In this document: positions 46,508 to 48,623 of the stretch, piece by piece | Layout: every line of letters starts with the position of its first letter | How positions within the stretch are numbered: position 1 is the first letter of the stretch | Notes under the pieces: model-generated | The model's input: only the letters and a program-made list of their open reading frames with translations | What the model was told of the DNA's origin: nothing | Database searches by the model: none | NCBI RefSeq assembly: GCF_002954405.1 | Contig: NZ_MQWC01000004.1 | Coordinates: forward strand, 1,787,909 to 1,851,908 | Origin: Salinibacter sp. 10B | GTDB taxonomy: Bacteria > Bacteroidota > Rhodothermia > Rhodothermales > Salinibacteraceae | Length of the DNA stretch: 64,000 nt | Direction of reading: 5' to 3' | Made by a program: the position numbers and the translations under genes

Positions 46508-46540
46508 GCGAGCGCTGGACTTTTCTCTGCTTCCGTGCCC

Positions 46541-47833
46541 ATGGCGTCCTCGCCCAACCCTGCTGTTTCGTCTGCGCTGATTCGCCGAAGTCCTGTCTAC
46601 TACGGCTGGATTGTCCTGGCCATCTCGACGCTCGGCATGGCAGCGACCCTTCCGGGCCAGACGGCAGGGGTCTCGCTCTTCATCGATGCCTTTATCGAAG
46701 ACCTTGGCCTCTCACGGTCGGCCGTCTCCTGGTTCTACACGGCGGCTACGGTGCTCGGCTCTCTCGCCCTGCCCCTCGTGGGACGGCTGCTGGACCGCTT
46801 CGGACCGCGTCGCATGGCGGTGGGCATTATTGCATGCTTTGCCGCTAGCTGCGTAGGAATGAGTTGGGTAAGCGGATGGATCGGCGTGTTTGTGGGCTTC
46901 GTGTGCCTGCGTGGATTCGGACAGGGAGCGCTCGGCCTCATCAACAACCACTCGGTCAACCTGTGGTTTGAGCGGCGGCGCGGACTGGCTGTTGGCATCC
47001 TGGGCCTTGGAATGGCCGGAGCCACAGCGCTCTTTCCTCCGCTCATTGACGAAGGCATTCAGGCCTACGGCTGGCAAACAACCTACCTCATCATGGGCGG
47101 CCTCTTGGCGGTCACCATGCTGCCGCTCGGGGCACTGCTCTACCGCGACGCCCCGGAACGCTACGGCCTCTCGGCCGACGAGCCGGCGGCCCCCGCAGAG
47201 TCGTCGTCCGAGGACGAGGCAACTGTGCGCGGGGTGAAGCCGGACACGGCCTATCGAACGTGGACCTTCTGGCTCTTCACCGTGGCTGGAGTGTGCACGG
47301 CGGGCTTCGGCACCGGTCTTCTCTTCCATCATTTCTCGATTCTGGAGGAGGTCGGCGTGGGCCGCGACTTGGCCGCGCAGTTCTTCATTCCGCTCGGCGT
47401 GGTCACGGCCGCCTTCAACGTCGGCACGGGCTGGCTCGTGGACCGCTACCCGCCCCGCTTCCTGCTGGGATTGCAGCTCACCCTCTTCGGCGCCATGATG
47501 GGCCTTCTCCCGGTCGTGAACACGACGGTCGAGGTCTGGGCCTACGGCAGTGTCTTCGGGGTCGCACAGGGCATGCAGCAGGCCCTTCTGGGGAGCGCAT
47601 ACGCCTACTACTTCGGGCGCCTGCACCACGGCACGATCCGCGGCCTCGCCAATACCGTCTTTATCGGCGGCACGGCCATCGGCCCGGCGGTATTGGCCCT
47701 GGGCCCCGATTTCATGAGCGGCTTTGCCCCAATCCTCTGGATCATTACGCCCATCCCCCTCCTGCTTGCCCTTGCGTCTTTTGGGGCATGGGTCCTGAAC
47801 TGGGACGCGTCGGTGCTGGTAGAAACAGACTAA
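46541..47833 (+). CDS. MFS transporter (OFA / monocarboxylate-porter-like)
   Basis: 430 aa with twelve helices. The first half has the loop 2-3 motif GRLLDRFGPRR and a GFGQGALGLINNHSVNLWF stretch; a polar acidic loop (SSSEDEATVRG) divides the halves; the second half has GWLVDRYPPRF and GVAQGMQQALLGSAYAYYFGR. The pattern fits oxalate/formate antiporter or monocarboxylate porter families, substrate unknown. The ATG at 46541 is preferred to a GTG two codons upstream. queE follows 67 bp later on the same strand. Confidence 0.9.
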   Translation: MASSPNPAVSSALIRRSPVYYGWIVLAISTLGMAATLPGQTAGVSLFIDAFIEDLGLSRSAVSWFYTAATVLGSLALPLVGRLLDRFGPRRMAVGIIACFAASCVGMSWVSGWIGVFVGFVCLRGFGQGALGLINNHSVNLWFERRRGLAVGILGLGMAGATALFPPLIDEGIQAYGWQTTYLIMGGLLAVTMLPLGALLYRDAPERYGLSADEPAAPAESSSEDEATVRGVKPDTAYRTWTFWLFTVAGVCTAGFGTGLLFHHFSILEEVGVGRDLAAQFFIPLGVVTAAFNVGTGWLVDRYPPRFLLGLQLTLFGAMMGLLPVVNTTVEVWAYGSVFGVAQGMQQALLGSAYAYYFGRLHHGTIRGLANTVFIGGTAIGPAVLALGPDFMSGFAPILWIITPIPLLLALASFGAWVLNWDASVLVETD

Positions 47834-47900: not shown

Positions 47901-48623
47901 ATGCCTCGTCCGTTTTCTGCCCCCTCCTACCGGGTAAAGCACGTCTTCCAAACGGTGCAGGGAGAAGGCTTTTGGGTGGGGCGGCCTGCTCTGTTCGTCC
48001 GGCTGGTGAGCTGCAACATGTGGAGCGGCTACGAGGCTGACCGCGCCCGTGACGCCGACCGCACCGGGGCCGACTGCCCGCGCTGGTGCGACACGGATTT
48101 TACCAAGGAGGGCGCCTCGACCCTCACGGCCGACCAGTTGACCGATCAAATGCGTGAGATTGGAGGCCCTGCCATTGACTTCTGTGTGCTGACGGGCGGA
48201 GAGCCGCTTCTCCAGGCCGACGCTGCGCTCGTTCATGCCCTGCACGAGGCCGGATACGAGGTCGCCCTTGAAACCAACGGCACGGTCCCGCTCGCCGACG
48301 CGTTCGGCAACGACAATTCCGAACAGTTGCATACGCCGGACTGGGTCACGTGCAGCCCGAAACGTCCGGAAGACCAACTCGCGCTGGAGCGGTACGACGA
48401 ACTTAAGCTCATCGTCCCCGACTATCGACCGTCCAACTACGCTCAGTTCGCCGAGCACGCAACACCCCATTCCATCAACGGTCGGGAACGACGACTGCTC
48501 TGGCTCCAGCCGGAGGACGGCCCGCGGTTGGAGGAGGCACAAGCAATGGCCGTTGACCTCGCACTGAAGCACCCCGAGTGGCGTGTAAGCACGCAGACGC
48601 ACAAGGTATTGAACGTGAAGTAG
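47901..48623 (+). CDS. queE: 7-carboxy-7-deazaguanine synthase QueE (unusual cluster motif)
   Basis: 240 aa radical SAM enzyme turning 6-carboxytetrahydropterin into CDG on the way to queuosine. KHVFQTVQGEGFWVGRPALFVRL, LTGGEPLLQ, ALETNGT and the late SPKRP segment are family hallmarks. The iron-sulfur cysteines are spaced CX20CX3C (SCNMW...DCPRWCDTDF), while typical QueE has CX3CX2C, and some members CX14CX2C. CDTDF after the last Cys is retained. The ATG at 47901 is clear. queC, queD and queF are not in the window. Confidence 0.92.
   Translation: MPRPFSAPSYRVKHVFQTVQGEGFWVGRPALFVRLVSCNMWSGYEADRARDADRTGADCPRWCDTDFTKEGASTLTADQLTDQMREIGGPAIDFCVLTGGEPLLQADAALVHALHEAGYEVALETNGTVPLADAFGNDNSEQLHTPDWVTCSPKRPEDQLALERYDELKLIVPDYRPSNYAQFAEHATPHSINGRERRLLWLQPEDGPRLEEAQAMAVDLALKHPEWRVSTQTHKVLNVK

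Follow-up and report, generated by a model that had tools for sequence, protein, structure and literature searches.

A probable 7-carboxy-7-deazaguanine synthase (QueE) of Salinibacter with a clade-specific CX20CX3C cluster loop

Introduction

The cluster motifs on record for QueE, the 7-carboxy-7-deazaguanine (CDG) synthase, are CX3CX2C and CX14CX2C, according to the accessible part of PMC4389238. The closest described system to the protein reported here is the Burkholderia multivorans enzyme (4njg, 4njh-4njk), which has a CX14CX2C loop and falls under the family model TIGR04508. The Escherichia coli and Bacillus subtilis QueEs (6nhl, 5tgs, 5th5) share family and fold with it, and we take their cluster loop to be the canonical short one. 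Annotation of radical SAM enzymes by motif relies largely on CX3CX2C and a small number of listed exceptions. The DNA analysed here, hereafter the window, is a whole stretch of 64,000 nucleotides from Salinibacter sp. 10B (contig NZ_MQWC01000004.1), in which a preliminary description had pointed out a QueE with CX20CX3C spacing and an Arg/Asp-rich insertion. No report of a CX20CX3C spacing was found in the open-access literature that we searched, and the strings CX20CX3C and CX16CX3C were absent from it, a search that a differently written motif would escape.

Results

A QueE with a CX20CX3C motif

The open reading frame at 47901-48623 (+) starts with ATG, has no internal stops and encodes 240 amino acids. 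Its features are:

47901..48623, + strand: queE, predicted CDG synthase with CX20CX3C, 240 aa, assigned by TIGR04508, the 4njg match and the fold match
48000..48002, + strand: R34, which pairs with Arg27 of B. multivorans QueE in the 4njg alignment; invariant in alignment A1
48012..48014, + strand: C38, cluster cysteine 1 (putative ligand), invariant
48015..48074, + strand: 20-residue Arg/Asp-rich span, residues 39-58, with helix 45-55 in the model
48075..48077, + strand: C59, cluster cysteine 2 (putative ligand), invariant
48078..48086, + strand: three-residue spacer P-R-W, which keeps an aromatic residue adjoining Cys3
48087..48089, + strand: C63 of C-D-T, cluster cysteine 3 (putative ligand), invariant
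48093..48095, + strand: T65, which pairs with Thr51 (CDT) of B. multivorans QueE in the 4njg alignment; invariant in A1
48600..48620, + strand: C-terminal H-K plus exactly five residues, a tail of equal length in 85/85 CX14-CX20 sequences

C38, C59 and C63 read C-X20-C-X3-C and the span between the first two, NMWSGYEADRARDADRTGAD, is rich in Arg and Asp, so that both elements of the preliminary description are borne out by the letters themselves. The protein fits neither the CX14CX2C nor the canonical radical SAM CX3CX2C spacing. The other motifs, described earlier as intact, are indeed so: QGEG, TGGEP, ETNGT, CSPK, CDT and QTHK are kept in the window protein, and QGEG, TGGEP, ETNG, SPK and QxHK are invariant or nearly so in A1 (38 rows), in which C38, C59, C63 and R34 are invariant in 38/38 rows. 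Thr51, the partner of T65, is presumably the Mg2+ ligand of the B. multivorans enzyme. We also take the C-terminal end of QueE to be a substrate contact; among the CX14-CX20 sequences it reads HK in 84/85 and HR in 1/85, always with five further residues to the C-terminus. A review mentions this tail (PMC8124187, in its accessible part), and Arg27, the partner of R34, holds the substrate carboxylate according to the portion of PMC5347944 available.

The best NCBIfam model for the protein is TIGR04508 (queE_Cx14CxxC; 175.7 bits, E 1e-51), which matches 38/38 A1 members with the lowest E among all families. Note that 175.7 bits lies under the curated cut-off of 240 bits, which we counted against our reading; the other QueE models rank next, likewise below their own cut-offs. 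Among solved structures, B. multivorans QueE is the nearest in sequence (4njg, E 9.8e-39).

Predicted structure of the cluster loop

Modeling of the loop, which the preliminary description had proposed, was performed with AlphaFold2 from the 38-row alignment A1 (pLDDT 94.2, pTM 0.90). The model places a helix at residues 45-55 inside the cluster loop, and block mean pLDDT values for residues 41-70 are 91-95. The top match in both Foldseek and VIA-align is 4njg (Z 25.1, rmsd 1.8 A, 201 aligned, 44% identical), followed among QueE structures by 6nhl (Z 18.8) and by 5tgs and 5th5 (Z 18.7); the best non-QueE structure is the pyruvate formate-lyase activating enzyme (Z 13.8). Identity to the E. coli and B. 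subtilis enzymes is 28-30% in the structural alignment. Family models, solved-structure match and fold agree on the QueE identity first proposed from the sequence.

The predicted fold is like that of B. multivorans QueE, and the two proteins have in common the CN-x-WSG-x-E-x-DRA loop opening, CDTDF, TGGEP and the C-terminal tail. They differ in the first gap, longer by six residues in the window QueE, and in the Cys2-Cys3 spacing, three rather than two; the 4njg alignment places seven extra residues from Cys1 to Cys3. Before Cys3 the window QueE has W where the B. multivorans enzyme has F, the Cys before SPK is shifted by one, and insertions occur at about 133-143 and 173-192.

Putting together sequence, conservation, clade, fold prediction and pathway genes, we consider it very likely that the window protein is a working CDG synthase with C38, C59 and C63 as its cluster ligands, and the most likely reading overall is that of an ordinary CDG synthase with an unlisted, clade-specific long cluster-loop variant. 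The three cysteines would hold a normal site-differentiated [4Fe-4S] cluster, SAM would bind its fourth iron, and 6-carboxytetrahydropterin would be contracted to CDG. The six extra Cys1-Cys2 residues would lengthen the surface helix at model residues 45-55, and one added residue, between Cys2 and the aromatic position preceding Cys3, would let Cys2 reach the cluster from this longer helix. More tentatively, the charged helix could cover the cluster and shape the docking face for an electron donor. This guess about partner docking and cluster shielding was prompted by a title that raises the flavodoxin question, that of a 2019 study of E. coli QueE by Grell et al. listed among the references of PMC11994313.

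Pathway genes in the window genome and its relatives

The window queE adjoins no que genes, which we also counted against this reading. Its downstream neighbor, on the other strand, is a sulfatase gene, and upstream lies:

window 46535-47833: MFS transporter gene, directly upstream of queE

In another member of the genus, queE likewise has an MFS transporter gene upstream (L063:1543-2847).

Elsewhere in the same genome, QueC (220.7 bits), Tgt (482.1 bits) and QueF (97.5 bits) each score over the curated cut-off. For QueD, two PTPS-like hits of 70.1 and 43 bits were obtained, both below cut-off; a same-genus genome that lacks a QueE match (G003) also has two such hits. The DpdA model (PDLC02807, E <= 0.001) gave zero matches in the window genome. 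In the 14 control genomes, matches were obtained for QueC in 12, Tgt in 14, QueD in 9, QueF in 9 and DpdA in 3. As QueC, Tgt and QueF are present and DpdA is unmatched, the likely role of the window QueE is CDG synthesis for queuosine, with QueC, QueF and Tgt carrying CDG on to tRNA queuosine in its own genome. A protein whose motifs, predicted fold and pathway genes say QueE is in this case found under the curated family cut-off.

QueC exceeds its cut-off in 18 of the 19 CX20CX3C genomes and Tgt likewise in 18; the exceptions are G036, with zero QueC matches, and G012, in which Tgt is not over cut-off. A 578-aa frame of G036 (L052), a candidate QueC-QueE fusion, has zero Pfam matches at E <= 0.001, its radical SAM part included. 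Ten of the 12 same-genus relatives lack a QueE match and also lack a Tgt match and QueC over cut-off, which indicates that the queuosine pathway tends to be all present or all absent, with the reading that some absences may be gaps, three of these 12 genomes being 62-83% complete. In seven other loci queC lies near queE, and in two a QueD-like gene, below cut-off, does. Among the 11 relatives with CX14CX2C (L020-L030), 8 have no QueC over the TIGR00364 cut-off (G049, G058, G020 and G046 included; G049 and G058 are single-contig genomes) and 10 have Tgt over cut-off.

CX20CX3C marks one side of a tree branch

We aligned QueE from Salinibacter relatives, as had been suggested beforehand. The sample comprised 60 genomes including the window genome, of which 42 encode a QueE match; the 30 of these loci that were fetched comprise 19 CX20CX3C (own included) and 11 CX14CX2C. 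All 18 closest relatives, at 77-56% identity, have CX20CX3C, whereas the 11 sequences with CX14CX2C belong to the same family and order, are 44-50% identical and lie on the opposite side of the tree branch. The alternative raised beforehand, that relatives would show CX14CX2C, therefore does not hold for the gene's own lineage. Altogether, CX20CX3C was found in 30 distinct sequences, from same-order relatives and from Pontibacter, Hymenobacter and another Cytophagales bacterium. A sequencing or assembly error, which the preliminary description had kept in view, was rejected and has a practically negligible probability, given the equal spacing in 30 distinct sequences from separate genomes.

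That the Arg/Asp span reflects adaptation to salt is unlikely, as loci labelled Rhodothermus, Pontibacter and Hymenobacter carry the span too, an argument from what we take the habitats of these genera to be.

In a sample of the phylum (394 genomes), 369 genomes match, 13 of them at or above 357 bits with the next best at 176 bits. CX20CX3C is present in 13/13 of the former, and the 17 further loci fetched from this sample are all CX14CX2C, weaker matches falling outside this count. A Myxococcota sample of 112 genomes, centred on a genome chosen for its CX16CX3C, gave 110 matches, and the 16 best are 4 CX16CX3C and 12 CX14CX2C. Finally, a one-genome-per-species scan for CX3C-type loops, which selects X3 by design, returned 42 stretches, all read as QueE: 20 CX16CX3C, 18 CX20CX3C, 2 CX18CX3C, 1 CX15CX3C and 1 CX19CX3C. 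The 37 stretches that were scored all match TIGR04508. The CX15-19CX3C forms, 24/42 of the scan loci, come from bins labelled Myxococcales, Kofleriaceae, deltaproteobacterial, acidobacterial, gammaproteobacterial and planctomycete. They share with the window QueE the CX3C end, the W or F before Cys3 and the loop opening, but their first gap is 15-19 residues with a mostly glycine-rich insert, and the tree places them with CX14CX2C.

Trees were computed on 90 distinct sequences (33 X14X2, 30 X20X3, 18 X16X3, 5 X3X2, 2 X18X3, 1 X19X3 and 1 X15X3), with short or cut-off sequences left out and loop columns excluded. With the CX3CX2C sequences as outgroup, X20X3 forms one side of a branch with support 79/86, in a tree with some extremely long branches (L150, 7.47) whose bootstrap had not settled. 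A quick tree of 82 rows, from which the outgroup's five CX3CX2C sequences and the long rows L034, L041 and L043 had been removed, gives the same branch an SH-aLRT of 99. X16X3 is interspersed among X14X2 sequences in the outgroup tree, with 8 changes, and the AU test does not reject uniting every X3 form in a single clade (p-AU 0.531); the CX3C forms may or may not share a single origin. Across the sequences compared, CX20CX3C is the mark of a clade and belongs to a set of roughly a dozen spacings. The proposal of a further cluster-loop variation is supported in that the window QueE departs from both forms first listed, yet it is not unique.

The same sequences bear on the identity of the ligands. 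A Cys lies directly before SPK in 30/30 X20X3 sequences (C151 in the window QueE) and one position earlier in 33/33 X14X2, which could suggest that a residue outside the motif, C151 for instance, serves as cluster ligand in place of C38, C59 or C63. This is very improbable: C38, C59 and C63 are all invariant, and since a nearby Cys also occurs in the CX14CX2C forms, the Cys beside SPK is not tied to the odd spacing.

First-gap length and Cys2-Cys3 spacing covary, in genomes and viruses

In the genomic set, X2 occurs in 33/33 sequences with X14 and X3 in 52/52 with a first gap of 15-20, many of the latter taken from the scan that selects X3. That one-genome-per-species scan would also have admitted X14 with X3, which was found in 0/42. 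All 90 genomic sequences have F or W before Cys3, with F in 33/33 X14X2 and W in 50/52 X15-20X3.

We then turned to viral contigs. A first search used patterns blind to the loop, and the 80 best of 364 contig matches comprise 26 X3X2, 25 X14X2, 9 X16X3, 7 X3X13, 3 X20X3, 3 X3X8, 2 X25X3, and X22X3, X18X3, X8X3, X3X9 and X27X9 once each (77 rows parsed; L209, L229, L231 and the odd L226 by eye). In a second search, with one pattern that favours X3 and some contigs in common with the first, the best 80 of 109 are 44 X14X2, 17 X20X3, 5 X18X3, 5 X16X3, 4 X25X3, 4 X15X3 and 1 X22X3. Ten unusual viral proteins were compared with TIGR04508: nine match at E <= 2e-37 and L201 (X8X3) at 1e-19, all ten below the cut-off. 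By tblastn, 189 phage and 151 plasmid records were obtained, all under 60% identity.

The viral CX20-25CX3C QueEs (e.g. L153-L156, L161, L176, L233-L248) are up to 50% identical to the window QueE and most share its loop type, CN-[ML]-W...R.RDA...CP-x-WCDT, the first gap extending up to 25 residues. Viruses also insert after Cys2, giving CX3CX8-13C. These CX3CX8C, CX3CX9C and CX3CX13C proteins (L183, L185, L189, L195, L198, L202-L204, L210, L211, L214) have Cys3 in the context GFDC or GFTC. One viral QueE among the matches listed, L226:3001-3693, has C-X27-C-X9-C.

Over the genomic and viral matches listed, counted as sequences and not as independent events, every first gap of 14 is paired with X2, and first gaps extended to any other length are paired with X3, X27X9 being the sole exception. 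The earlier statement that known QueEs are CX3CX2C or CX14CX2C agrees with the accessible part of PMC4389238 and with the name of TIGR04508, but the sequences depart from it, as CX15-25CX3C and CX3CX8-13C recur in genomes and viral contigs.

The first gaps found across QueEs in genomes and the viral matches listed (3, 8, 14, 15, 16, 18, 19, 20, 22, 25 and 27), with the other motifs kept, would be in line with the long loop having arisen by drift in an exposed, tolerant loop, the protein then being an ordinary QueE whose insert has no function of its own. We think this unlikely, though it is the strongest of the competing explanations: the gap is 20 in 30/30 clade members, conservation inside the span (A2, 17 rows) is complete at R48 and D51 and nearly complete at R54 and A57, and the covariation of first-gap length with Cys2-Cys3 spacing is not predicted by drift alone.

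Beyond an ordinary CDG synthase with a clade-specific loop, a broader and rather doubtful proposal is that the QueE cluster loop is an insertion hotspot on either side of Cys2 under a length rule, with CX2C at gaps of 3 or 14 and CX3C at nearly every other extended gap. The electron donor that meets the [4Fe-4S] cluster would then differ from one length class to the next, and loops and donors (bacterial, Dpd-island and viral) would have co-evolved. If so, this would be a radical SAM family whose choice of redox partner is readable from cysteine spacing. In any case, such varied spacings offer a way to ask how much of a cluster loop can be rebuilt before its chemistry is lost, and whether the loop sets the electron donor.

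CX20CX3C QueE beside Dpd genes

By gene context, the product of the CX20CX3C enzyme goes into tRNA queuosine in certain bacteria and into DNA modification in others. In Salinivenus iranica CB7 (G012, L050), after a queD-queC-queE run come a gene that by eye is folE2-like, a DpdC-like gene and DpdA, and then DpdJ, K, E, F, G and H. Scores are 78 bits for queD (below cut-off), 219.5 for queC, 24.9 for the DpdC-like gene and 377.9 for DpdA; Tgt (26.1 bits) and QueF (27 bits) are far under their cut-offs. In Hymenobacter sp. BT559, the CX20CX3C queE adjoins a DpdC-DpdA fusion, and the genome has a second QueE match elsewhere (121.8 bits), its own Tgt and two DpdA places.

These two loci, together with viral contigs that carry CX20CX3C and CX25CX3C QueE with QueC, FolE or PTPS genes (adjoining in four of the contigs looked at), raise the idea that CX20CX3C is at root a Dpd DNA-modification or phage preQ0 enzyme that entered housekeeping genomes. 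We regard this as improbable. A DpdA search over 11 CX20CX3C carriers gave strong matches in S. iranica and Hymenobacter BT559 only, zero matches in the window genome and 7 other carriers, and a match of only 21.6 bits, inside the Tgt gene, in G016; moreover, Tgt is found in 18/19 carriers.

Two genes are kept downstream of a viral queE (L153:5188-5991 and L153:5975-6580, also in L154). The L153 copies of both have zero Pfam matches, and the product of the second is a YhhQ-like membrane protein by eye. The fusion near the Hymenobacter queE (L038:4255-6354) is a 700-aa protein with a DpdC-like N-terminal part and DpdA. The S. iranica Dpd island (L050, L081-L083; G012:C90) is large, with two DpdA places in the genome.
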